Source of the DNA: a virus
Virus record (IMG/VR): IMGVR_UViG_3300033153_005694
Location: 19,028-83,027 of that record
Reading direction: 5' to 3' (one strand)
Length of the DNA stretch: 64,000 bases
Shown here: one piece after another, positions 33,893-59,039 of the stretch
Layout of the letters: each line of letters begins with the position of its first letter
Numbering within the stretch: the stretch's first letter is position 1
The notes under the pieces: model-generated
What the model saw: only the letters and a program-made list of their open reading frames with translations
Databases searched by the model: none
Told to the model about the DNA's origin: nothing
Made by a program: the position numbers and the translations under genes

Positions 33893-34150
33893 CTAGATAA
33901 AATATTCTGGGTAGCGCTCTTTGTATATAGGATCTATATATGTAGGACTATCTTCAGTAAAATAGTATTTTATAGCTGCAGATTTATAATCTTCTAAAGA
34001 ATTTACAGAGTAGTTTGATAAAAGAATAAAAGCTATAAGTGATTTACAGTCTTTCTCAAAAGTACTTAAAATAAAAGCAAAACCTTGGGCTGTGTAGTCT
34101 GTAGGACATCCTTGTGTTAATAAGGATAGAAGTAACGTTGTAGAATTCAT
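33893..34150 (-). CDS. hypothetical protein (85 aa) with C-terminal YPEYFI tag
   Basis: A small helical protein that begins MNSTTLLLSLLTQGCP and ends KERYPEYFI. The body has no recognised motif. It lies 8 nt after the GP88-like gene and ends just before the HU hairpins. Confidence 0.65.
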   Translation of the reverse strand: MNSTTLLLSLLTQGCPTDYTAQGFAFILSTFEKDCKSLIAFILLSNYSVNSLEDYKSAAIKYYFTEDSPTYIDPIYKERYPEYFI

Positions 34151-34158
34151 AGTAGTTT

Positions 34159-34725
34159 CTAGTGTTTAACAAAATTAATACCATTATATTGAGCTAGTTT
34201 AGTCATACAGTATCTGCAAGATGTTCCACATTCGACGTTTGAGCCTGCGGTGACTGGACAAGTGAATATAGAAGGATCTAGGTTTTCCACTTTGTCGTAG
34301 TTTAGTGAGCCGTGCATTAGTGAGTCGATGATGATTACATTTGGCATGCTCATTAAAGATGAAAAGTTGAAGTCACGTAAGCGTTTAGTAAAGGTATAGA
34401 ATATGAAATTTGGGAGTAAACGGGCAATAGTGGACCACTTGTCGACGTAGGCTTGAGAGTGAAATTCGCCTGACTCGTGTATACGAACTGTATGGCAAGG
34501 TCTGCGGTAGGATTTGAGTTCAGAGACTACGAGTTCAACGAATTCGTCAGTTTTGGAGATGTCTAAGCGAGCTTGACGATAAGGGACTACGGTTTTTGGA
34601 AAACGCTTTTGAGCTTTCAAAGCATAGCAACCTGGACATGTACGACCACATACAGACTTGTCAACGAGAATGTTGAAGATGTATTGGTCTTTAAGTTTGC
34701 TGTTTTGGAATTTGAATAGTTTCAT
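34159..34725 (-). CDS. GP88-like Fe-S / radical-SAM-type phage protein
   Basis: The 188-residue protein has CGRTCPGCYALKAQKRFP (CxxxCxxC, about residues 26-33), RIHESGEFHSQAYVDKW (about 100-116), FIFYTFTKRLRDFNF and a C-terminal Cys cluster (FTCPVT, CGTSCRYCM). This is the pattern of the gene-product-88 family of phages and mobile elements, which is predicted to be radical-SAM-like. The substrate is unknown. It overlaps the upstream tagged gene by ATGA. Confidence 0.78.
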   Translation of the reverse strand: MKLFKFQNSKLKDQYIFNILVDKSVCGRTCPGCYALKAQKRFPKTVVPYRQARLDISKTDEFVELVVSELKSYRRPCHTVRIHESGEFHSQAYVDKWSTIARLLPNFIFYTFTKRLRDFNFSSLMSMPNVIIIDSLMHGSLNYDKVENLDPSIFTCPVTAGSNVECGTSCRYCMTKLAQYNGINFVKH

Positions 34726-34967
34726 ATAAACATCTCCGGATGATACTCTTTATAGTTGTGGTATTTGTGGGATTCCTCAGCATAACCTGTAGTAGCGAAA
34801 AATTGCTTAAGATAAGTTTCAGTACCGATTTTGGATTTGGAAATAGGTAGGATATTGCCATAATCTGAGATGACTAGGTAAGTTTTGTCGGTTTCGTCGA
34901 TTACTGTAAGGTTGCCGGATTTACGTCCGTCTTTGGTATAAATAATGTCGTTAATTTTGAATTTCAT
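34722..34967 (-). CDS. hypothetical SH3-like protein (81 aa) with C-terminal HPEMFI tag
   Basis: Beta-rich: MKFKINDIIYTKDGRKSGNL and TYLVISDYGNILPI suggest a small KOW/SH3-like barrel. It then passes through a helical stretch to YKEYHPEMFI. ATGA overlaps link it to both neighbours. Confidence 0.65.
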   Translation of the reverse strand: MKFKINDIIYTKDGRKSGNLTVIDETDKTYLVISDYGNILPISKSKIGTETYLKQFFATTGYAEESHKYHNYKEYHPEMFI

Positions 34968-35164
34968 ATAAGTAACTCCGGGAATTTGTTAGTGGTATCA
35001 GATGCTAGTACGTCTTGCTCTGCTGTAATCTGCTATAAGTAGTATCTAAAAATATCTAGATTACTGGTTTGGTAAGAAGTATAGCCTGCTGTGTTGGATT
35101 GAGTACCTATGGTATAGGTAATTGAATCATCGACGTTTAGCGGGACTCCAAATAAACCTGTCAT
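34964..35164 (-). pseudogene. tagged small ORF interrupted by an in-frame amber codon
   Basis: The ATG overlaps the DNA polymerase stop (ATGA). The frame reads MTGLFGVPLNVDDSITYTIG to FRYYL, meets TAG at 35033-35035, and continues in the same frame QITAEQDVLAS to NKFPELLI and a TGA that overlaps the next ATG. Intact junctions at both ends suggest one 66-residue gene broken by a single CAG-to-TAG-like change, or an amber read-through. TAG ends many other genes here, so the codon is not generally reassigned. Confidence 0.5.
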
Positions 35165-36981: not shown

Positions 36982-36989
36982 AGGATTCC

Positions 36990-37277
36990 TTAGATAAAAT
37001 ATTCAGGGTATTGATTGGGGTTTTGGAGAACAAAGATAGGAAGGGCTGAATTAAAAATTTGCTTATGTCTAGTTGATGGCCATCTGCCTTTAGAGTCTGG
37101 GCCTTGATGAGTAGCAGGATATTTGTAGTAAAATAAAGGTTTACGACCATCCCAGCAAGTATCTAAGCGAGTATCGTAGGTCTCTAGTACATGCTTTTTA
37201 TCCAGCGGTATTTGGGTATATAGCCAATCTAGGTCTTCGAGACTAGTGATCTGGATGGTGTATTTGTTGATATCCAT
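36990..37277 (-). CDS. hypothetical protein (95 aa) with C-terminal YPEYFI tag
   Basis: MDINKYTIQITSLEDLDWLY opens a small aromatic protein with a Lys/Arg-rich middle (HQGPDSKGRWPSTRHKQIF) and the end NPNQYPEYFI. Stop codon and next ribosome site are merged (TAAGGA), with 8 nt before the polymerase start. Confidence 0.65.
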   Translation of the reverse strand: MDINKYTIQITSLEDLDWLYTQIPLDKKHVLETYDTRLDTCWDGRKPLFYYKYPATHQGPDSKGRWPSTRHKQIFNSALPIFVLQNPNQYPEYFI

Positions 37278-37279
37278 AA

Positions 37280-37564
37280 CTAGATGAATAATTCAGGCCA
37301 TTCGGTGCTGTTATAGGCTAATTGCTCGTTAATGACTACATACTCATAAGGATTACAGGCCAAACGTTTAGGTTCAGGTCTAGAGTGAGTTTGCGGATCA
37401 CGCATATACCAACCCTCAACCCATGGGTCTCTGATAAGAACGTAGATGTTCTCCTTTGTGACTTTGTCTACAGTTGTAATAGTGTCGTTATAGCGTGAGC
37501 CGTAGCCTTTAACTAGGATAGTATCGCCTATTTTGATTGGACGGCCTAAGATGTCTTGAAGCAT
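37280..37564 (-). CDS. SH3-like small protein (94 aa) with C-terminal WPELFI tag
   Basis: The start MLQDILGRPIKIGDTILVKG and the following TITTVDKVTKENIYVLI look like a small KOW/SH3-type barrel. The aromatic second half ends STEWPELFI. It lies between the two parts of the replicative polymerase. Confidence 0.65.
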   Translation of the reverse strand: MLQDILGRPIKIGDTILVKGYGSRYNDTITTVDKVTKENIYVLIRDPWVEGWYMRDPQTHSRPEPKRLACNPYEYVVINEQLAYNSTEWPELFI

Positions 37565-37573
37565 AGAGAGTCC

Positions 37574-37711
37574 TTAAATAAAAAATTCGGGGTATTGGTC
37601 TTTGAAATCGTTGAGAGTTGAAAGTGTAAACTTGTGGTCGGATAAGTAATCGTTGAGGTATAGCGATGTACTAGTAATCGACGTATTTGATGGTTGTAAA
37701 AGGTATACTAA
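37574..37711 (-). CDS. tagged small ORF without a standard start codon
   Basis: The open frame ends LNDFKDQYPEFFI and a TAA merged with the next ribosome site. Upstream there is no ATG, GTG or TTG. The only candidate that meets the exonuclease stop is TTA at 37709-37711 (TTAG overlap), giving VYLLQPSNTSITSTSLYLND. It may be a decayed gene or use a non-standard start. Confidence 0.4.
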   Translation of the reverse strand, partial: LVYLLQPSNTSITSTSLYLNDYLSDHKFTLSTLNDFKDQYPEFFI

Positions 37712-38397
37712 GTTTGCGATATATCGTCTTGAGATGTAGAGTTAGCATTGGATTCCTTTACGTAAGTATTGATTGAATCGAATAGTTTGTAAGTTGCACA
37801 AGCATCAATTGCTGCATAGTGGTGAACGTGTTCATCGTAAATGGTAGATAAGTCAAAGTTATCGGCGGATATCGCCCAATTTCCATACCACTTTCCAGCT
37901 AGCTCTTTGAGGCCAGTGTTAGCTTTCCAAGTCTCGACATGGTTGAGAATGGTTTTAGCGTAGATTTGCGTGTCTTCGTAGCTGATTGGCATCTTGCCTG
38001 TATGGTAATAAATATGCTTGAAATCGTAGGAAGCATTGTGCCATATTTGCTGCTTTTTGGTGGTAACCAAGAAGTTAAGAATTAAGTTGGTAATTCGAGG
38101 ATTATCGAGAATGAATACATAAGCCTCAGAATCGCTAATTGCAATACTACAATGGGTTAAAACAACATGAGATGGGTGGTCGAGAGCTGTAGCTCGAAGT
38201 TTAGATTCGAGTTCGATACGTCTACGTTTCGGTGGATTAGTATCTAGTTCAGCTTGCATTGAGGCTAGATCTGCTGGAGTATAGCGAATAGCGGTTTCGA
38301 AATCAGCTGCGAATAAGGCAGGTAATGAGCGAAGCCATTGATTTGCGGTATAAGCAGATTTGGTAGATTGGTAGGTGACTTTGATTGATTGCTGCAT
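37708..38397 (-). CDS. 3'-5' exonuclease (DEDD family), proofreading domain as a separate gene
   Basis: The 229-residue protein has Exo I ADFETAIRY (Asp-x-Glu), Exo II HNASYDFKHI, and Exo III HYAAIDACATY (Tyr-x3-Asp), so it is a DnaQ/Pol-I-type exonuclease of the DEDDy class. A 60-residue insertion rich in Arg follows Exo I. It is probably the proofreading partner of the polymerase encoded 0.7 kb downstream. Together they total about 835 residues, near the single-chain N4 polymerase. Confidence 0.88.
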   Translation of the reverse strand: MQQSIKVTYQSTKSAYTANQWLRSLPALFAADFETAIRYTPADLASMQAELDTNPPKRRRIELESKLRATALDHPSHVVLTHCSIAISDSEAYVFILDNPRITNLILNFLVTTKKQQIWHNASYDFKHIYYHTGKMPISYEDTQIYAKTILNHVETWKANTGLKELAGKWYGNWAISADNFDLSTIYDEHVHHYAAIDACATYKLFDSINTYVKESNANSTSQDDISQT

Positions 38398-38405
38398 GAC
38401 GAGTC

Positions 38406-38591
38406 CTAGATAAGCAATTCGGGATATTGCTCTTGAAGTTGAGGTAAAATAATAGTTGGAATATCACTAGACAACTCAGTACAGATTTGCCCAATTGAGC
38501 AATCTCCACAATTGCTGCCGCTATAGTATATAATGTTGTTTTGTATATAAGTATCAGGATGGGATAATAAAGTAACATATTTGTCTAACAT
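38406..38591 (-). CDS. hypothetical protein (61 aa) with C-terminal YPELLI tag
   Basis: A short Cys-containing protein (GSNCGDCSIGQICTEL) ending LQEQYPELLI, 8 nt from the exonuclease start. The Cys spacing could hold a metal. No family known. Confidence 0.6.
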   Translation of the reverse strand: MLDKYVTLLSHPDTYIQNNIIYYSGSNCGDCSIGQICTELSSDIPTIILPQLQEQYPELLI

Positions 38592-38599
38592 AGGTGCTC

Positions 38600-40015: not shown

Positions 40016-40023
40016 GTAGGTCC

Positions 40024-40272
40024 TTAAATAAAGTATTCGGGATGAGATTGTAGAGTGAAGCGGTCAACTTCGATGATACCGTACTTTTTATGATGTTTAA
40101 CAAAAGTATCAACACTTGTAAAAGTACCTGTAAGTGGGCTTGTAAGAGGCCTAGATAATGCTGTTGATTTATCTACACACCAATTAGTCCATGTTCCGGT
40201 GACAGGATCAGTAACATAGTAACGAGTAGAATCTGAAGGAGTAAGATCCGCTATAGTCATAAGTAATCGCAT
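40024..40272 (-). CDS. hypothetical protein (82 aa) with C-terminal HPEYFI tag
   Basis: The beta-rich body (YYVTDPVTGTWTNWCVD, SPLTGTFTSVDTFVKHHKKYG) ends TLQSHPEYFI. The gap to the helicase gene is 8 nt with a merged TAAGGAC site. Alternative Met starts exist within the first five residues. Confidence 0.62.
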   Translation of the reverse strand: MRLLMTIADLTPSDSTRYYVTDPVTGTWTNWCVDKSTALSRPLTSPLTGTFTSVDTFVKHHKKYGIIEVDRFTLQSHPEYFI

Positions 40273-40280: not shown

Positions 40281-40595
40281 TTAAAGAAGAAGTTCAGGAT
40301 ATTCCTGTTGTAAGTTGAGATCGCAAAGTGGGCGTTTATTAATGTTGAAATCTGCTGTTAAGACTTCACAAATAGTATTTAGTTGTGCGGGTGTCCCATA
40401 TACTTCGAGTATGTTACGTGATTTAATGATTATATTAGAAGGACTAATGCATGCGTCGTTGTAAATTGAAAGACGACCTTGTGTCTTTAAGTGATTTCGA
40501 TGCTCTTCTAAACACTGTTTAGCCATAAACTTGTGGTAGTAAGAATGCCAGAAGATGATAAAATTTCGGGAAGTATACTTCCAAGATAAAGACAT
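40281..40595 (-). CDS. hypothetical basic protein (104 aa) with C-terminal YPELLL tag
   Basis: The product is Lys/His/Arg-rich with an aromatic N-terminus (MSLSWKYTSRNFIIFWHSYY) and ends LNLQQEYPELLL. No domain known. Next start is 8 nt away. Confidence 0.62.
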   Translation of the reverse strand: MSLSWKYTSRNFIIFWHSYYHKFMAKQCLEEHRNHLKTQGRLSIYNDACISPSNIIIKSRNILEVYGTPAQLNTICEVLTADFNINKRPLCDLNLQQEYPELLL

Positions 40596-40597
40596 AA

Positions 40598-41044
40598 TTA
40601 AAGGAAAAGTTCAGGATACTCTTCTGCGATAAAAGAAGTATCAGGAATTTTAGTAAGGGTATTACGGATATTAGCTAGGTTATCAAGTAGTTGCTGTTTG
40701 ATAGTATTTGTTCTAGACTTGATAGCTAGATTTTTAGCAGCTAAGGCGATGATTGGTGATGTGAAAAGAGAGCAAGAATAATAGTTTACGTTTTTCACGT
40801 CGATATTAGAGTGTATTGTTTTTATTCTCCAACCATTCTTGCCTAAAAGAGTTGCACTAGTTGATTTTTCGACGATTTTGTCGTCCTTAATGGTAAATAG
40901 TTTGCCGGTAGGAGCAAAACTAAATTGCTTATCTCCCCAACTAGTGGTTTTTTCTTTGACTGTAACCTCGTAAGTTCGTAAAGATTTGCCTTGTATATTG
41001 CCGGTTTGTGTAACAGATGTTGGTTCAATTAAATATGCTATCAT
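40598..41044 (-). CDS. hypothetical protein (148 aa) with C-terminal YPELFL tag
   Basis: It contains TLLGKNGWRIKTIHSNIDVKNV and a helical C-terminal half rich in Lys, Asn and Ile, then SFIAEEYPELFL. It is one of the longer tagged proteins. No motif recognised. Confidence 0.62.
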   Translation of the reverse strand: MIAYLIEPTSVTQTGNIQGKSLRTYEVTVKEKTTSWGDKQFSFAPTGKLFTIKDDKIVEKSTSATLLGKNGWRIKTIHSNIDVKNVNYYSCSLFTSPIIALAAKNLAIKSRTNTIKQQLLDNLANIRNTLTKIPDTSFIAEEYPELFL

Positions 41045-41053: not shown

Positions 41054-41260
41054 TTAGATTTGAAGTTCAGAGTGTTGCCTGAATAAAATGTCGAGAAGTT
41101 GACCTAGAGTGTCGGCTTCGAAAGTATGTTGGTCGATGGTAATTCCACTTTGAAAGTCGTGGACAGACTTCCAAACGCTATCGATAGTATTGCTTGCAGT
41201 TACCCAATTTTCGGGGTCTGTTAAGGTTTTAGTAGCTATAGAGCTGATAGAAGTTGCCAT
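41054..41260 (-). CDS. hypothetical protein (68 aa) with divergent HSELQI tag
   Basis: MATSISSIATKTLTDPENWV runs to LLDILFRQHSELQI. The end keeps the xE(L)xI pattern but has Ser for Pro and Gln for Phe/Leu, a degenerate form of the tag. The 9-nt gap to the next gene is kept. Confidence 0.6.
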   Translation of the reverse strand: MATSISSIATKTLTDPENWVTASNTIDSVWKSVHDFQSGITIDQHTFEADTLGQLLDILFRQHSELQI

Positions 41261-43382: not shown

Positions 43383-43493
43383 CTAGAGGGAATATTCAGG
43401 ATACTGATCGAAGATTTGCTCAAATTTGATAGCTAAAGATTGGCGAGCATCACTATGGTTTAGGAATATGTCGATATAAGTGTTATCCGCCGT
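43383..43493 (-). CDS. tagged small ORF, possible ACG start
   Basis: The frame reads ADNTYIDIFLNHSDARQSLA to EQIFDQYPEYSL. No ATG, GTG or TTG is available, but an ACG lies 9 nt after a good AAGGAC site. The tag is slightly divergent (SL for FI). It may be a decayed member of the tagged set. Nothing else is recognisable between 43494 and 43633. Confidence 0.4.
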   Translation of the reverse strand, partial: TADNTYIDIFLNHSDARQSLAIKFEQIFDQYPEYSL

Positions 43494-43633
43494 AGAAAAA
43501 TAGTCCTTACCCTAAGAGTAACTAACATATCGGCTAAAAGGTATAAGTGAGACCACCAGATAATGAGTAAGATTGTCGAGCGAGTTCAGATGGTTTGAAG
43601 ATTGAATCGAGGTTGGCTTATAGATGTTTCACA

Positions 43634-44977: not shown

Positions 44978-45244
44978 TTAAATGAAGTATTCGGGATATT
45001 TGTCGCAGATTTCGCCTTTAAGTTGCTCAGGAGTAGCACTAGTTAATCCACCTGATTCGACGATCTTTCGAAACTTTTGCACAGTTTTGTAGTCAGGTAA
45101 GGTAAGCGTTTCGATTTTGCCGATAAACTTCTCGTATTTACAAAAAACTGGGTAGTCTTTCGCTGTGAGGAAAGCTACTTTTCGGTTGATGTGGTCAACT
45201 AGAAAGTAGTTGTTTGAAGCTGCGTTTCGGAATAAGAGTATCAT
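44978..45244 (-). CDS. hypothetical protein (88 aa) with C-terminal YPEYFI tag
   Basis: MILLFRNAASNNYFLVDHIN and KVAFLTAKDYPVFCKYEKFI form a beta-rich body, then a helix leads to GEICDKYPEYFI. The gene follows the ATPase gene by 2 nt. Confidence 0.65.
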   Translation of the reverse strand: MILLFRNAASNNYFLVDHINRKVAFLTAKDYPVFCKYEKFIGKIETLTLPDYKTVQKFRKIVESGGLTSATPEQLKGEICDKYPEYFI

Positions 45245-45924: not shown

Positions 45925-46119
45925 TTAGTTTAAAAATTCTGGGTAGTATTCAGTGCTAATCGTAGATTTATCATCTATAATTAACGATAAGTATTCGTCA
46001 CGAGTGATTAAAGGGCCTTTTATTAGAGTGTCCATAAATTGGTGGTATTTGCGGACATTATGGGTACAACCAGTAAGTTCAAAAGCTAAGAAAATAGTGG
46101 GGAATTTAGTGGGTATCAT
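45925..46119 (-). CDS. hypothetical protein (64 aa) with YPEFLN-type tag
   Basis: MIPTKFPTIFLAFELTGCTH leads to SLIIDDKSTISTEYYPEFLN. The tag ends in Asn rather than Ile. The gap to the next gene is 15 nt and contains its AGGAGG site. Confidence 0.6.
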   Translation of the reverse strand: MIPTKFPTIFLAFELTGCTHNVRKYHQFMDTLIKGPLITRDEYLSLIIDDKSTISTEYYPEFLN

Positions 46120-46128: not shown

Positions 46129-46479
46129 TTAAATAAAGAGTTCGGGGTTACGTTTAGCGATATCGTCGAGTTGGGTGATATCAACTTTAGGATAAACTAG
46201 TTCTCCTTGTCCGCCAGCAGTTTTGCCATTACAGTAATAAGCTACCCAATTATCGTCATAGTTTTCGCCATCACCATAGACTTCGAAGACTACATTGGGG
46301 TACTGTTTAGAGATAGTTACCATGTCCTTCTCAGAGTCATACCACTTAACATTTCTCTCGTTTATAACACCAAATACATAATTTGTAGTCTTCTCAAAAA
46401 AAGATTGAAATTCCTCAGAATCTAAAAGTGATTTGTCGCCTGCAACGATATTGATATTATGGTATGTATAGTAACCCAT
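46129..46479 (-). CDS. hypothetical protein (116 aa) with C-terminal NPELFI tag
   Basis: The ATG at 46479 (MGYYTYHNINI) is chosen because AAGGAG lies directly upstream and longer versions would overlap the nuclease gene deeply. The body is acidic and aromatic (VFEVYGDGENYDDNWVAYYC) and ends with a helix and AKRNPELFI. It resembles small phage proteins of unknown role. Confidence 0.65.
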   Translation of the reverse strand: MGYYTYHNINIVAGDKSLLDSEEFQSFFEKTTNYVFGVINERNVKWYDSEKDMVTISKQYPNVVFEVYGDGENYDDNWVAYYCNGKTAGGQGELVYPKVDITQLDDIAKRNPELFI

Positions 46480-46481
46480 AA

Positions 46482-47270
46482 CTACTCCTTGAAAAGTTGT
46501 GGTTTGGCTGGTTGCTTTAATCGTAGATCTTGGGCTAGTAAGTAGCGAAGTTCTGGGTGTTGGTTCCAAGCATCTGCGGATTCAGCGATAAGTTGAAGTT
46601 GGCTGTCGATTTTGTCGTAGTCTTCAGAAGTGAAAGGTTCACGAAAGTTGAAAGTACGAACTGGCAGAGTTTTGGTCGGTTTGGTTACGTATTGTAGCTC
46701 GATGTAAGATATATTGATACCTTGCTGTCTGAGGATCCAAGCGTAAGTATGTAGCTGAAGTCGATAAGCATAGGTAAAACCTGATGGTTTCTTCCCTGCT
46801 GTCTTGTAGTCCCTAAGAACTAGATCATTCCCAAGCTTAACGATAGCGTCGTAAGTACCAGCTGCGTAGATGCCGGGTAAAACTGGATGGTGAATGAACT
46901 GTTCGATGGAATGGAACCGTGTGCCGATGATTGAGTCGGTGATGATTGCGTTAGACATATCTCGCCAATGAGTTTCGATCTCGGCTCTGTCGAAGTCGAT
47001 GGTTTGTGAGTCAAGGTAGTCGGAAACAAGTTGGTCAGGATTTGCAGGTCTGAGGCCTAAACCTGCTTGCTCTGCAAAGTAGTGAACGATTGTACCTAGT
47101 AGAGAGGCTGTAGAGCCTTCGAAGCCAGGTTCGTTGAGGAAATTAACTCCCCACCATTGCCGAGTGTTGGAAAAGAAATCGGCGATAGAAGAAGGTGAAA
47201 GTCGCGTATAGTCGGCTGAGCCATTGTGAGCAGTTAAAACGTCTGCACCTGAATAATATGAATTGATCAT
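46482..47270 (-). CDS. PD-(D/E)XK nuclease (Cas4/RecB-like)
   Basis: The 262-residue protein has the early His helix LLGTIVHYFAEQAG (about 58-71), the core GTYDAIVKLGNDLVLRDYKTAGK (Asp, then DYK, about 146-168), and YRLQLHTYAWIL (QxxxY motif). This is the RecB-type nuclease arrangement, without visible Cys ligands of a Fe-S cluster. It likely degrades or processes DNA in recombination with the nearby ATPase and SSB. Confidence 0.88.
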   Translation of the reverse strand: MINSYYSGADVLTAHNGSADYTRLSPSSIADFFSNTRQWWGVNFLNEPGFEGSTASLLGTIVHYFAEQAGLGLRPANPDQLVSDYLDSQTIDFDRAEIETHWRDMSNAIITDSIIGTRFHSIEQFIHHPVLPGIYAAGTYDAIVKLGNDLVLRDYKTAGKKPSGFTYAYRLQLHTYAWILRQQGINISYIELQYVTKPTKTLPVRTFNFREPFTSEDYDKIDSQLQLIAESADAWNQHPELRYLLAQDLRLKQPAKPQLFKE

Positions 47271-47278
47271 GGAGGTCC

Positions 47279-47530
47279 TTAAATTAAAAGTTCTGGGTAT
47301 TGGATTCGTAGTTTGTCAAGGTCTAAAGGCAGATCTTTAATATGGGGATAAATTAAAGTTTTGTAGTTGTTTGCAAAACCGCCATCTAAAGCAGATAAAA
47401 TATCACACCTTGCTGGGCATATGCTACATTGGGAAGTACAGCTATCTCTGTAGATATGTTGCTTCCAATCAAAAATATGTTCGGTTATACGAGCTTGAAT
47501 AAAAGTAGTGATAATCTGTGAGGTATTCAT
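47279..47530 (-). CDS. Cys-cluster small protein (83 aa) with C-terminal YPELLI tag
   Basis: The middle has SCTSQCSICPARCDILSA, four Cys spaced C-x3-C-x2-C-x3-C, which could bind zinc or an Fe-S cluster. The end reads DKLRIQYPELLI. A similar Cys pattern occurs in the tagged ORF at 55969. Confidence 0.65.
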   Translation of the reverse strand: MNTSQIITTFIQARITEHIFDWKQHIYRDSCTSQCSICPARCDILSALDGGFANNYKTLIYPHIKDLPLDLDKLRIQYPELLI

Positions 47531-47538
47531 AGCAGTCC

Positions 47539-47889
47539 TTAAATAAAATATTCTGGATAGTCGTCTCGAATGTCATCGATAGCTGCATAAATGCCAAGAA
47601 AAGTTCGTGGAGCTTTGGAAGACCAAGATGATTCGTCAGTAAGTGATCTAGTTTCGGAACTAGTTTCGGTGATGTGTTCGGTAATCAGGATGGTGTCAAC
47701 TAGGTAAAGGTGATAAATACCGTCAGGTAGTGGTGGGACTATTAGTAAAGGAAGGATATCAGCTTCACTAGATGAATCCAGTAGTTTGCAAATCTTCAAG
47801 TAATTAAAGGACTTTGGAGTGATGGTTCGTGATCCTGTAGATAATTGGAGAGTTACGGAGTCATCCGTCATCTTGATGTGCGGTATCAT
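47539..47889 (-). CDS. hypothetical protein (116 aa) with C-terminal YPEYFI tag
   Basis: The start at 47889 is favoured by GGAG 7 nt upstream although it overlaps the rIIA-like gene by 29 nt. A Met at 47871 is an alternative. Beta strands (VTLQLSTGSRTITPKSF, PDGIYHLYLVDTILITE) precede YAAIDDIRDDYPEYFI. Confidence 0.62.
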   Translation of the reverse strand: MIPHIKMTDDSVTLQLSTGSRTITPKSFNYLKICKLLDSSSEADILPLLIVPPLPDGIYHLYLVDTILITEHITETSSETRSLTDESSWSSKAPRTFLGIYAAIDDIRDDYPEYFI

Positions 47890-50002: not shown

Positions 50003-50095
50003 TTAAATAAGTAGTTCTGGATGGCGTATCTCTGAATTAAATAACTCTATTTCATACCCTATAGTAAGAGCTTGCTTAAGTTGGTCAATAGTCAT
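50003..50095 (-). CDS. 30-residue tagged microprotein
   Basis: The frame has an ATG behind AAGGACATTT and codes for a helix (MTIDQLKQALTIGYEIELFN) that runs directly into SEIRHPELLI and TAA. It is hardly more than a short helix plus the shared tag, and its ribosome site is as good as its neighbours'. The upstream gene stop is 13 nt away. Confidence 0.6.
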   Translation of the reverse strand: MTIDQLKQALTIGYEIELFNSEIRHPELLI

Positions 50096-50108: not shown

Positions 50109-52379
50109 CTAGTAGAGCCTTACAGCTTGGTCTTTCAGCTTATTAATACGATCATCTGGCATTGCTCCCATATCTATAGCCCAAGCATCGTTGACATCGT
50201 CGATAAGTGTATGGACTTGTTCAATGGTAGCGCCAAGAAGTTTGGCATGTTGAACCATACGGTATATGTTACGAGAACCAGTACCAGGTGCTGCGTTGAA
50301 TGCGTAAGAGAACGTTTCAAGTTCGTCAGCTAGTTGGGCTTTAGATTGAGCAGGTGATAGAGGTTTGTCAGATTGATGCATAGTGGTACGCTCTTTAGCA
50401 GCCATTACAAAGTTACGGACTTCGAGAGGTGACGCGTCTATTACAGATAATACTGGACGGTTTGCATAGCTGAAGAAGATTTGAGATCGTGGTAATGGGT
50501 CTACTTGTAAAGCTAGATCATGAGCGACTATGGCTGTGAAGTGTTTCCAAGTTATGTTGTCGAGTTCAATAGGTGAGTCTAGTTCGATAAGAACACGGAA
50601 TTTGTACTCATTAGATGGATCGCTAGATAAAGCGATATGGTGGTTAAGGTCACCTAGCATGAAATGAGCCTCGGATGCTGATAAAGATGATTCGTCTACA
50701 TCGTAGACTAGCCATTTGGTACCACCGATGATGTTGTCTTTACCACGTACTCCGTTACGGAATTTAAATGGTGAATATGCGAAATCTTTGGTAAGTAGTT
50801 GACCTAAGTCTAAAAATGTAGTTTCAGCTACTTCAAAGCCATAGGCTGTGGTTACAGAGATATTGTGTTTAGCAGATCTAACGCGATCAGAATCGCCGCT
50901 AGTAATAGCATTATTGAGTTCGTCAGTATTGATTGGCTTAAATGAGATGCCCAGAACGTCAGTTTTGATAATAGGTTCATATTGAATTGCTCCTCCCTCG
51001 TTGATTACACTGTAGATACCGTCGGTATCATAACCAGCACATAAAGTTACAAGTTCTTGTAGTTTGGTTTTGGATGTAGATGTAGTAAAGCCTTGCTTTT
51101 TGATGTCGTGGACATTAATGATTGCTTTACCGTCAGCTTTGACTTCTGTTCGTAGGTAGTCTGCGAAACGTTCGTGGTCAGACTTAGATAAATCGTGTTC
51201 GAAAAGTTTCATATCTTCGGACAGTAGTTCGCTGAATCTGATGGCATCTATGTAGTGGTGTTGTTCGATGGTATTTGATTTATCGAAGATTGCAAATGCT
51301 CCAGCTAGTTTGATAGCTTTCCACTGAAGATGTCGTCTGATTAAGACGGATGTGGAATCTTGGTTTGGCATAATGTCAGCTAGGTCTGCATTGTAACGTT
51401 TGTATCGTCTGAATAGAAGTTTGGCTTCTGGAGATACTGCGATGTCTTGGCCTTTGGAAGATATGCCGAAGCTAGCTACAGACTTGATGTGTTCAGACAT
51501 TGCTATACGAGCTTGTTTAGCTTCGATCTCTAGATTGTCTTCGTAAGTGTCGGATTTCTCGAGTGTAGAGAATACAGGTTCAGGAATTCGTTCTGGAGTA
51601 TAGCAGAACCAAGATCTACGAGCTAGTTTAGACATGAAAGCGATATCGAACTTTTTCCTCGTGGTTGGGTCGTAAAGGATGTGGCCTGGTGAGCCTACAA
51701 ATAAGGCTGAAATTGGCTGGCCTTTGATGGCTCTAGTTCGGAATTCGATTCCGGCTGTGTAAATTGCCTCTTTGTCACCTGTATCGTAGACTTCGGATAG
51801 CAGTTTAATGTTGGCTTCCATATTGGGATTGTAAGCTAGTTCGTCTGAGAATTCACCTGAGTAAATAAAACCTGATGAGATACCTAGGTCTCCAATGTCT
51901 GTTAGGTGGACTGTAAGGCCCTTTTCAGTAGTAGGAGTGATATCGATAGGTGGAATGGGTTTAAGATACTGTTTGTAAGTATCGAACTCTGTGGCTTGAT
52001 CTTCGCCTGCGGCTTCAGCAGCTTTGATAGCTTCGTCAGTTACAAGTTGTTTACGGTGAGATTCGATCATTGCGAAACCATCTGCGAAACATTTACGAGC
52101 AGCTTTAACAGATGAATCTTTACCACCACCTGAACCGGTAACGATAAATGAGATTGCATTGATTGGGACTGAAGTGTCATCCCATAACATAATGTTACGC
52201 CTGAATTGTGAGGCAAAGTTTGTAAGTTGAGCTACAGCGATAGTTGCTTTCATTCGGTCATTAACAGTAGTAAAGACTATAGCATTTACGATACGTTGGA
52301 TGTGTGAGTTGAGGCCTGGAGTTAAAGCATCATATTGGTCAAGTACTTCTTTGTTTAAATCTAGCATACTGGGGTTCAT
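50109..52379 (-). CDS. DNA primase (N4 gp43-like)
   Basis: The 756-residue protein has a P-loop-like FIVTGSGGGKDSS (about 75-87), a DUF3987-like helicase-type middle (FIYSGEFSDELAY, FVGSPGHILYD), and a primase-polymerase-like C-terminal part with WLVYDVDESSLS (DxD), HHIALSSDPSNEYKFRVLIEL and FFSYANRPVLSV. Length and order match the N4 gp43 primase. It would lay RNA/DNA primers for the family A polymerase. Confidence 0.8.
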   Translation of the reverse strand: MNPSMLDLNKEVLDQYDALTPGLNSHIQRIVNAIVFTTVNDRMKATIAVAQLTNFASQFRRNIMLWDDTSVPINAISFIVTGSGGGKDSSVKAARKCFADGFAMIESHRKQLVTDEAIKAAEAAGEDQATEFDTYKQYLKPIPPIDITPTTEKGLTVHLTDIGDLGISSGFIYSGEFSDELAYNPNMEANIKLLSEVYDTGDKEAIYTAGIEFRTRAIKGQPISALFVGSPGHILYDPTTRKKFDIAFMSKLARRSWFCYTPERIPEPVFSTLEKSDTYEDNLEIEAKQARIAMSEHIKSVASFGISSKGQDIAVSPEAKLLFRRYKRYNADLADIMPNQDSTSVLIRRHLQWKAIKLAGAFAIFDKSNTIEQHHYIDAIRFSELLSEDMKLFEHDLSKSDHERFADYLRTEVKADGKAIINVHDIKKQGFTTSTSKTKLQELVTLCAGYDTDGIYSVINEGGAIQYEPIIKTDVLGISFKPINTDELNNAITSGDSDRVRSAKHNISVTTAYGFEVAETTFLDLGQLLTKDFAYSPFKFRNGVRGKDNIIGGTKWLVYDVDESSLSASEAHFMLGDLNHHIALSSDPSNEYKFRVLIELDSPIELDNITWKHFTAIVAHDLALQVDPLPRSQIFFSYANRPVLSVIDASPLEVRNFVMAAKERTTMHQSDKPLSPAQSKAQLADELETFSYAFNAAPGTGSRNIYRMVQHAKLLGATIEQVHTLIDDVNDAWAIDMGAMPDDRINKLKDQAVRLY

Positions 52380-53591: not shown

Positions 53592-53599
53592 AATAGTCC

Positions 53600-54466
53600 T
53601 TAGATTAAGTGTTCGGGGTAAGTATCGATAACAACTTGCGGTATTTCGATAGTTGGGTATGGAGGATAAGTATGTCGACCTGCTATAGCTACTATAGAAT
53701 TAATATGGTTATCCCATTGTTTTTTGGTGTTTTGTCCACGAGTTGCTGTGTATAGTTGCAGTTCGGGAGAGAAGTGGGGTAATGGCAGGATTTTGGTATG
53801 TGATTTGATGAGAAAATCATAGATTTTTAAGCGTTGATTAGCAGGTAACTGGTCAATGGCTTTGATGATGTATGGAACGTAAAACATATTAACGCTCATA
53901 AATGTGCGGATTTGAAAACCGACTGTAGATTTTACCTTTTTTTCGTAGTAATGAGGTATTCTTTCATCCCAACGATATACAAGTTTGTTTAATGCTGTTT
54001 GAAATTTGGTGAAATCTAGTGTTTGTTTCTTTTGGTAAATGTATTTAGTAAGTCGGCTAAGAGTATTTGATTGAAATTTGTCTAGTTCGAAATATAGGTC
54101 ATCGTGAAATGTTGGGTGTTGGTATAGAGTGCCCTCTGGTAGCATTGCTTGACGAGATTTGTTTAAGTCAAAATCTGCAAGGATTTGTTCGGGAGTACCA
54201 AATTGGTTGACGATGAGTTGGATGTCGTAGTGGTCAATGATTGGAGCTTTAGAAGGTATAACACCTGAGCTATTTTTGTAAGTATGGGCGTTGCTAGTGG
54301 TATAATCAGCTTCGCCGAACTGTTTGATTACAGTACTTGCGGTATGCTGGTCAATAAAATAGATGTCGATGTCTTTGGCTTTATCGAGTAAAGAACCGCC
54401 AGCTATAAACCAGCCAGATGGTGGAAGTAACTGTTTGAGTTTGTTGAAGTGCTCAGGTTTGATCAT
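53600..54466 (-). CDS. nucleotidyltransferase-fold protein with C-terminal YPEHLI tag
   Basis: The 288-residue protein shows the nucleotidyltransferase signature WFIAGGSLLDKAKDIDIYFID (GG/S and DxD, about residues 18-38) and a third acidic residue around IIDHYDIQLIV (about 77-87). This is the fold of CCA-adding and minor nucleotidyltransferases. The substrate is unknown. It is the largest protein with the shared tag (VVIDTYPEHLI). Confidence 0.75.
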   Translation of the reverse strand: MIKPEHFNKLKQLLPPSGWFIAGGSLLDKAKDIDIYFIDQHTASTVIKQFGEADYTTSNAHTYKNSSGVIPSKAPIIDHYDIQLIVNQFGTPEQILADFDLNKSRQAMLPEGTLYQHPTFHDDLYFELDKFQSNTLSRLTKYIYQKKQTLDFTKFQTALNKLVYRWDERIPHYYEKKVKSTVGFQIRTFMSVNMFYVPYIIKAIDQLPANQRLKIYDFLIKSHTKILPLPHFSPELQLYTATRGQNTKKQWDNHINSIVAIAGRHTYPPYPTIEIPQVVIDTYPEHLI

Positions 54467-54720
54467 AGGAATAACTCCGGATAGGTGTCAAGAAGCTCTT
54501 GCTGGCTTGTAAAGCTGTAAAGAAGAGTAAAATTTTTACCAAGAGCTTGCTCAATAGGCTTGCCAGTATTACTATTTTGATTAAAGTGTGAAGGACCAGA
54601 AAAATCGTAAGCTAAAGTGTTTGTTATGGTACTACAACGGGTACTAGATGCATAATCAGGAGTACGAACCAATATAAAAGAATTAGGTGTATTTTTAACT
54701 TGAATTAAATGATATTGCAT
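54463..54720 (-). CDS. hypothetical protein (85 aa) with C-terminal YPELFL tag
   Basis: The protein starts MQYHLIQVKNTPNSFILVRT, beta-rich, and ends QQELLDTYPELFL. The stop overlaps the nucleotidyltransferase ATG (ATGA). Confidence 0.62.
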   Translation of the reverse strand: MQYHLIQVKNTPNSFILVRTPDYASSTRCSTITNTLAYDFSGPSHFNQNSNTGKPIEQALGKNFTLLYSFTSQQELLDTYPELFL

Positions 54721-54751
54721 AAAGGCTCCTAAAAGGGTAATTTAAAATAAC

Positions 54752-55048
54752 TTACTCGATCTTAGTAACTATTTTCTTGAATAGCTTTTTATTGTTTAGA
54801 TCTTTGTCGAAGTTTGATAGCTTCATATAGTTGTCAAAGTTGTCATCTTTTTTCGATTTTAAGAAAGCAGCTAAGATTTCGATGTCTGTACCATATAAGT
54901 ATGCTAATAGTGGTAAAGCGTCTTCAGAAGATTCTGATTTAATGTATTTAGTAAATAAGTTGTTGGCAAGTTCTGTCTTTTGAATAGCTTCCTGGTTTGC
55001 GATAAGCTTATTGATATGATTACCAATTTTCTCAGGGTTTTTAACCAA
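54752..55048 (-). CDS. hypothetical helical protein (98 aa)
   Basis: A Lys/Asn/Asp-rich helical protein starting MVKNPEKIGNHINKLIANQE and ending KIVTKIE. It overlaps the AAA ATPase gene by 8 nt, so it may be its small partner. There is no tag. Confidence 0.62.
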   Translation of the reverse strand: MVKNPEKIGNHINKLIANQEAIQKTELANNLFTKYIKSESSEDALPLLAYLYGTDIEILAAFLKSKKDDNFDNYMKLSNFDKDLNNKKLFKKIVTKIE

Positions 55049-55943
55049 TACAACCTTTAAAGATTTGGAATTGAACTACGTCTGGGATCTTGTCGATTTT
55101 GTCTACGAATGACGCAAGTTTAGTCCAAGATCTAGGTGTTGCCCCAACTCCGCCATCTGCAGGTGTCCAATGGATTCTGTCTGGATGTTCAGCGATGAAA
55201 TCTCTAACGATTGAGTTGACGTTAGCTGTTCTAGCCCAATCTAGCCATGCAGTTGCATCTGCTTCCACAGTACAGTGGGTAAACCTGTCTAGAAGTGCTG
55301 GATCGAAGGTGTTAACCGTGTAGTCTTGATCTGCAGGATTGATGGCTGCGACTACAAATGTAGGTTTACCATCAACTATTGGTAGTAAGTGTGAGTGTAA
55401 ACGTTTGTCAAGAACTAATTGAAGGCTGGCATTTAGAATGTCAACTGGTGCTCTGTTGAATTCGTCTAAAAAGATTACAGATCTTTTGGCTTTGCTGTAA
55501 GTGATAAGGTCTTGAGTGATTAAATGTAGCATGTCATTGATCTCGCCTGTAAATTCGCAATATAGGGCATTTAGAGATGCTCTATCGATAGATGAACTAG
55601 TGTCTATTCTGTCGATTACAAATGATTTGATTTCGTCAGATGCGAAGCTTAAGTCATCGAAGTTGACTGATGGTGGGAATGCAGCATTTATAACCCTATT
55701 GTACCAGTCTGCTCCTGCCCATACAGTAGTTATCTGACCACCAACTTCAGCAGTTCTAGGCATACCCATTAAATCGGATACGTCCATAAGAGATAAGATT
55801 AAAGTTTCACAATGTAAGTCTTGCTCTGTAGCGAATTGTTTAACTATGTCTGATTTTCCAAGACCATGTAGGCCAGTTATTAGTGGTGCAGCATCTACGA
55901 TGTGGCATGCTTCTACGAAGCTTTTTGTCTCATTTATTGTCAT
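55041..55943 (-). CDS. MoxR-type AAA ATPase (N4 gp24-like)
   Basis: The 300-residue protein has Walker A TGLHGLGKSDIVKQF, Walker B SVIFLDEFNRAP, and a sensor-like FVVAAINPADQDYTV followed by DPALLDRFTHC, the MoxR/RavA arrangement. MoxR ATPases act with VWA partners as chaperone-like remodelling machines. N4 has the same neighbouring pair (gp24/gp25). The partner is at 56234. Confidence 0.9.
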   Translation of the reverse strand: MTINETKSFVEACHIVDAAPLITGLHGLGKSDIVKQFATEQDLHCETLILSLMDVSDLMGMPRTAEVGGQITTVWAGADWYNRVINAAFPPSVNFDDLSFASDEIKSFVIDRIDTSSSIDRASLNALYCEFTGEINDMLHLITQDLITYSKAKRSVIFLDEFNRAPVDILNASLQLVLDKRLHSHLLPIVDGKPTFVVAAINPADQDYTVNTFDPALLDRFTHCTVEADATAWLDWARTANVNSIVRDFIAEHPDRIHWTPADGGVGATPRSWTKLASFVDKIDKIPDVVQFQIFKGCIG

Positions 55944-55968
55944 TTGGTGTTCCTTTTGTTGTTGTGTA

Positions 55969-56231
55969 CTATATTAGCAATTCTGGGTTTGATTGTTTAA
56001 GGTGTTCGGCTAAAGTTTGTGTTAAGTTTTCACCGTTGTTACAGCTAGGTTGAAGTTTGCAGGCTTGGCAAGGGATTCCTTGGCATATGGCATAGATTGA
56101 GCCTTTGTCACGATCTAGTTCAATTTGGTAACAGAATGGGTCGATGTCTGTTTTCTTGAATTTTTTGCGAGATTTCTTGTCATCTTTATAGACGATGTAT
56201 AAGGGAAATCGCCGATTTGTGAAGTAATCAT
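55969..56231 (-). CDS. Cys-rich tagged ORF lacking an in-frame start
   Basis: The frame DYFTNRRFPLYIVYKDDKKS, then FCYQIELDRDKGSIYAICQG, IPCQACKLQPSC and HLKQSNPELLI is clearly protein-like. The ATG at 56229-56231 next to the VWA stop is one base out of frame with it. A one-base indel, a shift event or a TTA start would connect them. The cluster C-x4-C-x2-C-x5-C may bind a metal. Confidence 0.45.
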
Positions 56232-56233
56232 AG

Positions 56234-57436
56234 TTATTCTTTAAGCTGGAATGCTGTCATTTTGCCTTTGTTCATTGAGTCCATGATTTGGCCATTGGCT
56301 TCGATTAACCAGATAATTCGCTTGTTAAGTTTAGCGAATACTTCGACGTCTGAGGTGTCAAGGTAACCGTCTGTAGTAATTACTATAGCGTTGTAGTCAA
56401 GTCTATACTCTTTGGCTTTGTTGATTGCTGGAGATAAGTAAGTACCACCTGCTGCTTTACGTTCAACGATTTTGGTGTTTTTCTTCAGTTCTTCGGGTTT
56501 GCTAGGTTGTGTGCTGATTTGAATAAGTTTGACTGCAGATTGAGTTACGTCACAAATATGTCGAACTTCGCCCCATAAGTGTAGAAGAGCGTCGTCAGAT
56601 ACTGAACCTGATACGTCGGATACGATGAGTAGGTCAAATATACGGTCTTTAGTTCGACCTTTGAGCCATTCGAAGTCTGGTAGTCGTCTGTCAGGTCTCA
56701 TCGTAGTTTTGCGAGAACCTACACGTTTGTTGCCTACTATGTTTCGAAGGACTTTACGCCAATCTAGTTCACGTTTGTGGGTGAATAGGTCAAGCCAATT
56801 GCTGATTGCGTTAGGTATAGTACCACGAGATTTCTGGGTGCTAGAGATTGACTTTTCGATCATGTTTTTGGTAATGTCATCTTGTAGTTCTGGATCACCT
56901 TGAGACTCATCCCATTTAGAATGTGCTCCACCTGGAGTTCCTGAGCCTTGGTTTTGTTGGTCTTTGGGTGGTAATTGGTCTTTGTCGAGGTATTCGTAGT
57001 ATTGTTCAGCAGACTTGTTGTTTGGTGTTTTCTTCTTTGAAGGAAAGTTATCAGGATAAATACAGCCGTTTGGTAGATGTGTACGATCGATAGCTTGATT
57101 GATTGCACAGTCTGTTGCGTAGTTGAAAGCCTGGGGATCTCTGTCTTGCCGTCTGTAGATGTGGCCATTTAAGATGTGTAGCATTTCGTGTTTAAGAATA
57201 CCTAGTCGTTGAACAAGTGGGAATTTGTTGAATTCGTCAGGGTTGATAAATAGGTTGTAGTGATCTAGATAAAAATTGACACTGGCAGGTGCGGGTAAAG
57301 ATTTGTCATATTGGACTTTACATTGAGCAATCATGTGAGTGTAGAATAGGTAAGTTTGGGAATATTGAGATTGGATAGCTATCATATTACTGATAGCTTC
57401 TTCAAATCCATATTTGTCAGCTGGAGTGATTTGCAT
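56234..57436 (-). CDS. VWA protein with N-terminal metallopeptidase-like domain (N4 gp25-like)
   Basis: The 400-residue protein has KHEMLHILNGHIYRR (HExxH, about residues 77-92) typical of DUF2201-type metallopeptidase domains. A flexible Gln/Gly/Pro-rich linker (about 150-185) follows, then a VWA domain with MIDAS LIVSDVSGSVSDD (DxSxS) and VITTDGYLD. It pairs with the MoxR ATPase. The machine might remodel or cleave a host or phage complex. Confidence 0.88.
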   Translation of the reverse strand: MQITPADKYGFEEAISNMIAIQSQYSQTYLFYTHMIAQCKVQYDKSLPAPASVNFYLDHYNLFINPDEFNKFPLVQRLGILKHEMLHILNGHIYRRQDRDPQAFNYATDCAINQAIDRTHLPNGCIYPDNFPSKKKTPNNKSAEQYYEYLDKDQLPPKDQQNQGSGTPGGAHSKWDESQGDPELQDDITKNMIEKSISSTQKSRGTIPNAISNWLDLFTHKRELDWRKVLRNIVGNKRVGSRKTTMRPDRRLPDFEWLKGRTKDRIFDLLIVSDVSGSVSDDALLHLWGEVRHICDVTQSAVKLIQISTQPSKPEELKKNTKIVERKAAGGTYLSPAINKAKEYRLDYNAIVITTDGYLDTSDVEVFAKLNKRIIWLIEANGQIMDSMNKGKMTAFQLKE

Positions 57437-57437
57437 G

Positions 57438-58091
57438 TTAGTCCTTTAAAGTAGTGGGTAGTGTTCCAATGAATGGTTCACAGTAGTAGTATCTACCATG
57501 AGGTTTAGTAAGATATTTATGTGTATGATTATCCATTTTCATAAGTTGTAATAATTGTGGTTGATCTTCTGATGAATGCCAAAACCAACACCATTCGTTT
57601 GGTTGTGGTTGCCAGGGTTTAATATCTGATATAAGGATTATGCCTTTTAAATTATTACCTTTTAATGTGACTGTATCATGTCCTATAGGAGCGCTAATTA
57701 CTTGTTTTATAATTCTGGGATTTTTACATGTAGTAATCTCAACCCAATCACCAACTTTGAATTGTGGTTCGTCGGGTTTGATTCTACAGTAACTTGGTAC
57801 ATAGTTTAACATGTCAATATTATTTGAATTTTTCCATTCAGGATAAGATTGTTTATTAACATTTACTTGAATAGTTTTACCTTCAGCTAATGCTTTACGC
57901 AATTCAACATATTCGTCGTTGATGATGTAAGTACAATCTTCGATAGTTCCAGCAAAGAATGTTGAAGGTTCGTCATAATCAATAGTAAGCCATTGTGGTA
58001 TAGTATCATCAGGATAATAACCTAATAGTTTTCCGCCATTAAGCCAGTGTTCGAATTCAAGTTTGTATTTATTGATTATGTCTTTATTCAT
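57438..58091 (-). CDS. hypothetical protein with KOW/SH3-like segment (217 aa)
   Basis: The N-terminal part (LEFEHWLNGGKLLGYYPDDT, DYDEPSTFFAGTIEDCTYI) resembles small phage host-takeover or accessory proteins. A central FKVGDWVEITTC segment and NEWCWFWHSSEDQP look like SH3-type repeats. It ends LPTTLKD, 1 nt before the VWA ATG. Function unknown. Confidence 0.6.
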   Translation of the reverse strand: MNKDIINKYKLEFEHWLNGGKLLGYYPDDTIPQWLTIDYDEPSTFFAGTIEDCTYIINDEYVELRKALAEGKTIQVNVNKQSYPEWKNSNNIDMLNYVPSYCRIKPDEPQFKVGDWVEITTCKNPRIIKQVISAPIGHDTVTLKGNNLKGIILISDIKPWQPQPNEWCWFWHSSEDQPQLLQLMKMDNHTHKYLTKPHGRYYYCEPFIGTLPTTLKD

Positions 58092-58100
58092 GGTTGTCCT

Positions 58101-58331
58101 TTAAATTAATAGTTCTGGATAGTTTGTAGAGTTGAATTTGCGATAATCTTTGATTGTTGTAATTAACATATGGCCTTCTTCTTGTAGCTTTTCGATATTT
58201 ACAGTAGAGTTGTAACAAAGTGTTGTGGCAGTAATCTCATTTAATGTACACCAAGTGGAATTGGCTGTTTTAGAACATACCCAATAAGGTTTTTGTGGAT
58301 TGTTTTTAATATTACAAAGTATATAGTACAT
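58101..58331 (-). CDS. hypothetical protein (76 aa) with C-terminal YPELLI tag
   Basis: MYYILCNIKNNPQKPYWVCS opens a beta-rich protein with three Cys and the end KFNSTNYPELLI. Its gap to the next gene is 9 nt. Confidence 0.62.
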   Translation of the reverse strand: MYYILCNIKNNPQKPYWVCSKTANSTWCTLNEITATTLCYNSTVNIEKLQEEGHMLITTIKDYRKFNSTNYPELLI

Positions 58332-58339
58332 AAAAATCC

Positions 58340-58762
58340 TTAGATAAGTAATTCTGGTTTGTGTCGGCGTAAATAGTCTACGACTTCACTAGGTAAATCT
58401 TGCGGAGTAAAATCTTGTATGTGGGAATCTACAGACTCTGAATAATAGCCGTTAGATGAGTCATGCCATTTGATGTCTACATAGCCTTTGATAGTGGCTA
58501 GAGTGTAGAATGTCCAAGTTTCGGATTCACCATAGTTGGTATCGGCATGGTACACTTTTTTGTCAACACGAAGTAGTGGATTGTAGAGTAGATTATCAAG
58601 ATTACCGACTATATCGTCAATAACAACTTCCTCGCAGCAATCTTGGTCATGTCGTATAGTGACTACTTTGCCGTTAGCTAGATAAAACTTGATGTTATCA
58701 TCTAGGTCTTCGCTACGTGTAAGTTTGATATAGATAGGTATCTGGTTTTTAAGGTTTTGCAT
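58340..58762 (-). CDS. hypothetical protein (140 aa) with C-terminal KPELLI tag
   Basis: Acidic, with a Cys pair in DQDCCEEVVIDDIVG and an aromatic GESETWTFYTLATIKGYVD segment. It ends VVDYLRRHKPELLI, where Lys takes the Tyr position. Confidence 0.62.
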   Translation of the reverse strand: MQNLKNQIPIYIKLTRSEDLDDNIKFYLANGKVVTIRHDQDCCEEVVIDDIVGNLDNLLYNPLLRVDKKVYHADTNYGESETWTFYTLATIKGYVDIKWHDSSNGYYSESVDSHIQDFTPQDLPSEVVDYLRRHKPELLI

Positions 58763-58769
58763 AGTAGTC

Positions 58770-59039
58770 CTAGATAAATAATTCAGGGTTAGAAGTTTTG
58801 TAAAGCTCTGGATGGTTGTGGATAATAGCTAAAAGTAAATCTGTAAGATCGTAGCTACGTTTAATGTCACTATAGTAAGAATCTTTAGCGAATTTGGTAA
58901 TAGAGTATTTGTTATCGAGTAATCGAAATAGATATTCATGGTCGTCTAAATCACTAGGTTTTACAAGTTGGTGAAATGTGTAATCGATGGATATACCTAG
59001 CTGTTGCTGGGCATTGTCCATGAGTTGTTGAGGTGTCAT
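58770..59039 (-). CDS. hypothetical protein (89 aa) with C-terminal NPELFI tag
   Basis: MTPQQLMDNAQQQLGISIDY begins it and LLAIIHNHPELYKTSNPELFI ends it, so a second tag-like HPEL lies 12 residues before the true end. It starts on the stop of the upstream gene (TAATG overlap). Confidence 0.62.
   Translation of the reverse strand: MTPQQLMDNAQQQLGISIDYTFHQLVKPSDLDDHEYLFRLLDNKYSITKFAKDSYYSDIKRSYDLTDLLLAIIHNHPELYKTSNPELFI

Follow-up and report, generated by a model that had tools for sequence, protein, structure and literature searches.

The window, as the whole analysed stretch of 64,000 nucleotides is called here, runs from position 19028 to position 83027 of a virus record that is 83,027 bases long. 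Many small genes on its minus strand end in the same short peptide, termed the tag below, with the consensus (Y/H/F)PE(Y/L)(F/L)(I/L/V), and among them lie the genes of a MoxR-type AAA+ ATPase and of a DUF2201 protein with a VWA domain, the two candidate readers of the tag. According to our own gene calling, 18 intact genes of the record carry the tag, all of them inside the window, against 0.03 expected from amino-acid composition. The observation, made earlier from the letters of the window (the sequence-only reading), is genuine and bigger than stated there. The source phage is kin to Alteromonas phage AD45: its DNA polymerase is 59% identical over 99%, its primase, helicase and rIIA families also match the N4-like AD45 group, and the AD45 record itself lists several N4 gp-like proteins. 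A crAss-like kinship, prompted by a 41-base match, was dropped because the core genes are N4/AD45-like.

All window genes listed in this and the next two paragraphs lie on the minus strand. The intact tagged genes are located at 33893-34150 (85 amino acids, ending ERYPEYFI), 34722-34967 (81, EYHPEMFI), 36990-37277 (95, NQYPEYFI), 37280-37564 (94, TEWPELFI; a beta-barrel, SH3/Tudor-like family present in many tagged phages), 38406-38591 (61, EQYPELLI), 40024-40272 (82, QSHPEYFI), 40281-40595 (104, QEYPELLL), 40598-41044 (148, EEYPELFL; its homologues in other phages are likewise tagged), 44978-45244 (88, DKYPEYFI), 46129-46479 (116, KRNPELFI), 47279-47530 (83, IQYPELLI; a Cys-cluster protein), 47539-47889 (116, DDYPEYFI), 50003-50095 (a peptide of 30, IRHPELLI), 53600-54466 (288, DTYPEHLI; a nucleotidyltransferase that bears the tag in seven phages of differing types), 54463-54720 (85, DTYPELFL), 58101-58331 (76, TNYPELLI), 58340-58762 (140, RHKPELLI; a DUF7448 protein) and 58770-59039 (89, TSNPELFI). 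The gene at 47539-47889 adjoins rIIA in an rIIB-like position, and its orthologues retain WPEY(L/C/F/T)(L/I), including in the tag-poor AD45 and G008. None of the structural genes in the window is tagged.

The sequence-only reading had listed 25 tagged gene ends. All 25 minus-strand stop codons are present and 22 of the ends fit the pattern [YHNFWK]PE[LYFMH][LFS][IL], anchored at the extreme C-terminus; two more are degenerate, as had been remarked, at 41054-41260 (HSELQI) and 45925-46119 (YPEFLN). The end at 52376 is wrong as listed; its frame reads HPEFLFKGTQ, and because it ends in KGTQ with HPEFL upstream of the stop, it resembles a frameshifted tag. Of the 22 tags, four stand in frames without a usable start, namely 34964-35164 (NKFPELLI; the N-terminal part, 35033-35164, matches G001_88265, which ends LHPELFI), 37574-37708 (DQYPEFFI), 43383-43508 (DQYPEYSL; matching the end of L041_3887, KYPEYFI) and the Cys-cluster gene 55969-56231 (QSNPELLI; matching G004_5016 and G001_1270). 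Homologues of 34964, 43383 and 55969 locate the lost N-terminal part in a different frame or close by, so these three are read as tails of frameshifted genes. The apparent frameshifts in 34964-35164, 37574, 43383, 52376 and 55969-56231, some of them near the tag, may be assembly indel errors or gene decay.

The MoxR gene of the window occupies two frames. Its N-terminal part (55041-55943) matches AAA_5 (E 6e-8) and AAA_3, as befits a MoxR-type AAA+ ATPase, and its C-terminal part (54752-55048) is found in its own frame by tblastn with G004_5854 and G006_9714, about 38 homologue residues remaining unaligned between the two; this may reflect a split gene, a mutation or a sequence or assembly error. 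The DUF2201 gene (56234-57436) encodes an HExxH zincin domain (Pfam DUF2201_N, E 3e-19; H83, E84 and H87 invariant) followed by a VWA domain, whose metal-ion-dependent adhesion site (MIDAS; DxSxS, T, D) is complete, with D274, S276, S278, T332 and D356 invariant in 24 sequences. The model of this protein resembles the MIDAS domains of MDN1 (midasin) and of NorD, the VWA protein of NorQD. In many public phage records DUF2201 VWA-metallopeptidases are called 'HNH endonuclease' (N4 gp25 in locus L086, the Moorella phage in L085), which looks like a propagated misannotation.

The motif is concentrated at the end of the protein. Of the 3067 genes on 17 phage contigs that have the relevant VWA gene, 369 possess PE-x-h-h termini (1.03 expected). 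The strict motif is C-terminal in 241 of these genes, compared with 13 internal occurrences in 622,736 positions, an enrichment of about 3,800-fold. The reversed motif (EP) is absent from the contigs where it was counted, and five comparison contigs contain no PE-x-h-h terminus in 554 genes. Motif frequencies inside proteins or in the comparison contigs equal to those at these termini, which would have spoken against a tag, are thus not found. Gln takes the place of Glu in 15 tags and Asp in one. About 13 of the Gln variants belong to phage G031 (loci L184-L195), in which a repeated gene family (e.g. 12845, 20273, 37017 and 100661) ends in FGKEHFPQYFI; PAE variants (NAEYFV) occur in the same phage.

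Proline is encoded by all four codons and the tags terminate with all three stops, with no sign of recoded stop codons. A DNA-level effect would have the tag codons serve the gene that follows, as Shine-Dalgarno sequence or for coupling, and the peptide arise incidentally. This idea draws on the tags whose stop is overlapped by the next start: 113 of 137 use GAG, and 73 use CCGGAG. One such case is the untagged gene 34159-34725 (minus strand), which starts inside the stop of gene 34722 (ATGA overlap) and has its Shine-Dalgarno sequence (ccGGAG) within the tag codons of that gene. In these overlapping genes, the Pro-Glu codons with GGAG double as the ribosome-binding site of the next gene. Where the next gene begins 5-15 bases on, however, the ribosome-binding site lies after the stop (TAAGGA...), GAG is used in 9 of 124 tags and CCGGAG in two, and the peptide is unchanged; for a further 67 tags a same-strand neighbour is lacking or lies over 60 bases off. 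Codon choice therefore tracks the needs of translation while the peptide stays constant. This split between overlapping and spaced genes rules out a Shine-Dalgarno by-product as the main cause, and as an explanation of the tag it is scarcely credible. It is the peptide and not the DNA that is conserved, as had been proposed.

The bodies that carry the tag are unrelated. The 403 tagged proteins, mostly small accessory proteins with a median of 93 amino acids, fall into 332 sequence families, 295 of which are singletons, and an alignment of 94 of them has a mean column identity of 5%, with only Met1 and the Pro-Glu pair invariant. Since codons vary as well, this family count points to selection on the peptide. 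Most tagged proteins have no match in Pfam or PHROG; known domains among them are DUF7448, ProQ-like, AAA, nucleotidyltransferase and UvrD helicase. A few families recur, above all 15 barrel proteins and 7 nucleotidyltransferases, and these are what could favour descent of all tagged proteins from one diverged paralogous family whose last helix ends in the motif. The 332 families without detectable homology, the variety of known domains and the lack of the tail in homologues argue against it, so that this explanation is rejected as very improbable. The barrel family of 37280-37564 is predicted to form a small barrel with a C-terminal helix, modelled with lower confidence at the tag end; its matches in the PDB are weak and include Tudor/SH3-type domains.

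Where untagged relatives exist, sequence comparison indicates that the tag is an added tail. The DUF7448 protein (58340-58762) has an extra stretch beyond the end of the homologues from phages of Bacillus, Sinorhizobium and Pseudomonas. The UvrD-type helicase of relative G006 has a tagged extension, and three of its four orthologues in the tagless N4-like phages G009-G012 lack one, aligning right up to their own final residue. The absence of the tag from core proteins, noted in the sequence-only reading, accordingly holds for the window and fails in G006 with its tagged helicase. One tag, selected as a peptide on unrelated accessory proteins, is well supported by the family count, the alignment, the codon split and the added tails.

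The sequence-only reading had counted confinement of the tag to this phage group as support. The tag is not so confined, and several unrelated phage types carry it. Scans of IMG/VR in which contigs were recruited with tag DNA patterns alone reach N4/AD45-like phages (G001, G004, G005, G006) and, as distinct types with few common genes, G002, G003 and G007. Tagged genes number 77 of 323 in phiKT1024, 53 of 193 in G003, 49 of 161 in G001, 34 of 338 in G028, 32 of 359 in G031, 23 of 73 in G006, 22 of 68 in G004, 18 of 105 in the source phage (G000), 16 of 167 in G002, 11 of 296 in G020, 9 of 125 in G019, 8 of 58 in G027, 7 of 59 in G017, 4 of 334 in G025, 3 of 117 in AD45, 2 of 82 in G008 and 1 of 209 in G026; there are none in G009, G010, G011, G012 and G029. 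Cultured phages with the system are the Vibrio phages phiKT1024 and Va1 and, with few tags, Alteromonas phage AD45; the close relatives pv27 and phiTY18 are assigned to it by their VWA gene. A search of one genome per bacterial and archaeal species with a narrow pattern gives no chromosomal tag cluster, only nine single hits and one multi-tag contig. The latter (L041, MUGC01000118.1) is a 4.4-kb contig binned as a Thermoplasmata metagenome-assembled genome; it has six tagged genes, its genes are 78% identical to phage G001, and it is probably a mis-binned phage fragment.

The N4-like and the other tagged phages share few genes: MoxR, VWA/DUF2201, ThyX and a ClpP-like protease. ThyX is uninformative as a partner because the tagless G010 has it too; a ThyX-like fragment in the window (26276-26602) has 108 amino acids compared with about 205-288 in relatives, and is truncated or split. 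The ClpP-like protease was one of the two candidate partners of the sequence-only reading, with the tag as its degron. Its gene is present in the N4-like tagged phages, and a weakly similar one in G002, G003, G020, G031 and phiKT1024. It is equally present (34-62% identity) in the tagless N4-like G009, G010, G011 and G012, and is not detected in G028 with its 34 tags. Because tagless relatives also possess it, the ClpP-like protease is disfavoured as the sole reader and a most unlikely explanation of the tag. The ClpP-like gene is split at a common position, near residue 127, in G004 (29436-30779; L066, about 10400-11900), G001 (69471-70833) and G019 (46479-47867). In G004 an open reading frame is inserted between the parts, suggestive of an intron that carries a homing endonuclease; Rfam reports no intron family in this stretch of G004 and no family at all in the window.

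Co-occurrence, the gene neighbourhood and the VWA tree all speak strongly for the other candidate, the MoxR/VWA machine. When all genes of five tagged genomes are queried against 13 tagged and five tagless genomes, MoxR and VWA are the only genes present in 13 of the 13 tagged genomes, the runner-up reaching seven; among the tagless genomes one (G029) has matches, which are distant MoxR/VWA relatives only. Five of the 13 tagged genomes were recruited via VWA and the other eight were not. A different phage component, such as the virion, a replication compartment or an unrecognised small protein, could read the tag and be co-inherited with MoxR/VWA, given that several genes flank the pair and that the tagged nucleotidyltransferase family is common to seven phages. 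No other gene comes near the distribution of MoxR/VWA, however, and the tagged proteins are mostly small accessory ones while the structural genes of the window lack the tag, which makes such a component a rather improbable reader.

Recruitment by different routes gives the same association. The Vibrio phages phiKT1024 and Va1, selected solely for a G003-like VWA gene, are heavily tagged around VWA. Contigs recruited by DNA polymerase only, of at least 50 kb and with tags (the window record, G006, AD45, G008), all have MoxR and VWA, while G009-G012, recruited in the same way, have neither gene and no tag. Among recruits by tag DNA pattern only, of at least 40 kb, G001-G004, G038 and G039 carry VWA. 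In a scan by VWA alignment, most VWA genes of at least 33% identity have tags within 10 kb, and 17 loci with VWA under about 31% identity have none over that distance. Exceptions above 33% are L091, L103 and L104, without nearby tags; L097 is a short contig, and its near-identical counterpart L096 does carry a tag; L101 corresponds to the AD45 region, with tags elsewhere in AD45; and the tag of L095 (QFPEYCI) slipped past the first pattern.

In the VWA tree, a supported clade (97/98) unites all 20 tag-associated rows and one untagged 23-kb fragment, with the 12 other untagged rows outside. The tag labels require 2 changes on this tree compared with 10.6 when shuffled, and none of 500 shuffles is as low. 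Tagged genes also cluster beside the VWA gene; within 6 kb of it they account for 27 of 33 genes in G003, 12 of 25 in G002 and 9 of 20 in phiKT1024. G025, with VWA and no detectable MoxR, has 4 tags in 334 genes, while its sister in the VWA tree, G028, with MoxR, has 34 in 338 (p=3e-7), a hint that both genes are needed. Phages differ in their tag dialect, with YPEYYL in G003, YFV endings in G007, G031 and G037, and YFI endings in G001 and phiKT1024, as expected if the tag of each phage co-evolved with one partner. Such variants would also fit adaptation to a host factor (AAA+ protease, chaperone or polymerase), for which the tag would be a degradation or docking signal, MoxR/VWA merely co-travelling among phages of certain hosts. 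That explanation accounts neither for the tracking of one clade of the phage VWA gene across unrelated phages nor for the clustering beside it, and is unlikely.

As the tag co-occurs with one branch of the pair, it is probably an address label, a recognition signal read by the phage MoxR-type AAA+ ATPase and its DUF2201 VWA/HExxH partner. Several points weigh against this. G037 (82 kb, at least 15 tags), G005 (47 kb) and G007 (37 kb) are tagged with no MoxR or VWA detected, although these linear records may be fragments; just 2-3 tags accompany the two genes in AD45 and G008; in G025 and G026, VWA comes with few tags and MoxR is not detected. Several of the pooled genomes were recruited via VWA, which makes their counts dependent on it. 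G009-G012 may represent one lineage, and the association may stem from co-inheritance with host range or another factor. The tagged contigs without the pair and the tag-poor AD45 and G008 bound our confidence in a MoxR/VWA reader.

We infer that the MoxR/VWA complex would bind the tag directly, by analogy with the known pairs described below, and would remodel or degrade the tagged proteins, or employ them as plug-in adaptors. Many small accessory proteins would be produced bearing the tag and be captured through it, the final hydrophobic residues and the free carboxylate engaging the AAA+/VWA complex; the tagged proteins, or host proteins that they hold, would then be unfolded or cut. The tagged proteins might thus be substrates, subject to timed removal or processing, or adaptors delivering other proteins. 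That the Glu of the tag acts as a ligand completing the MIDAS metal site is a sub-hypothesis, downgraded from a firm claim, since the far commoner replacement of Glu by Gln than by Asp disfavours a strict MIDAS-carboxylate contact. The small size, diversity and clustering of the tagged proteins make attractive the tentative idea that they are interchangeable adaptors, whose small domains bind different host or phage proteins and whose tag plugs them into an AAA+/VWA-metalloprotease that unfolds or destroys the target.

In known MoxR/VWA pairs (CbbQO, NorQD), target selection goes through the MIDAS of the VWA protein and an acidic residue. The CbbQ ring may engage its target as well, a contact with the C-terminus of rubisco having been proposed (PMC4660213, PMC9976466). 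These pairs, together with RavA-ViaA, midasin and p618/p892 of the archaeal virus ATV, likewise combine an adjacent or nearby MoxR-type ATPase with a VWA protein of complete MIDAS. They serve one or few dedicated targets, whereas here dozens of unrelated proteins would share a short C-terminal label, and the phage VWA protein, unlike theirs, has an N-terminal HExxH domain. A homologous gene pair, DUF2201 VWA-metallopeptidase and MoxR, is found in N4-like and other phages, among them N4 (gp24/gp25), VCO139 and the Bacillus phages AR9 and PBS1. These relatives are under about 31% identical to the tag-associated clade, and the stretches of N4, VCO139 and the Moorella phage that were examined, like the distant IMG/VR loci, contain no tagged genes.

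C-terminal degradation tags such as the ssrA tag and MuA-type C-degrons are short peptides with a hydrophobic end that are read by ClpX. The phage tag differs in its PExhh sequence, in its genome-wide occurrence in a phage and in its predicted MoxR/VWA reader. It is not a product of ssrA tagging by transfer-messenger RNA (tmRNA) either, being encoded gene by gene and ending in I, L or V instead of LAA, with no tmRNA in the window. The peroxisomal PTS1 signal, the tail of single-stranded DNA-binding protein and clamp-binding motifs are cases in which many unrelated proteins share a short C-terminal peptide and a single receptor. These are cellular signals; the literature searched contains no virus counterpart on a comparable scale, no shared C-terminal motif of phage proteins and no description of a system of this kind.

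Most small phage genes are orphans without known function. With as many as roughly one in three genes of a phage tagged, hundreds of such orphans would share one directly testable partner, and the widespread phage MoxR/VWA pair gains a predicted role; the tag also suggests a new handle for an AAA+ machine in the form of a short peptide. Because cultured phages (phiKT1024, Va1, pv27, phiTY18, AD45) carry the system, it is testable now. If the tagged proteins were indeed adaptors, these phages would possess a viral hub for targeted degradation with up to about 77 adaptors, in a logic like that of cullin ligases with their many F-box proteins.

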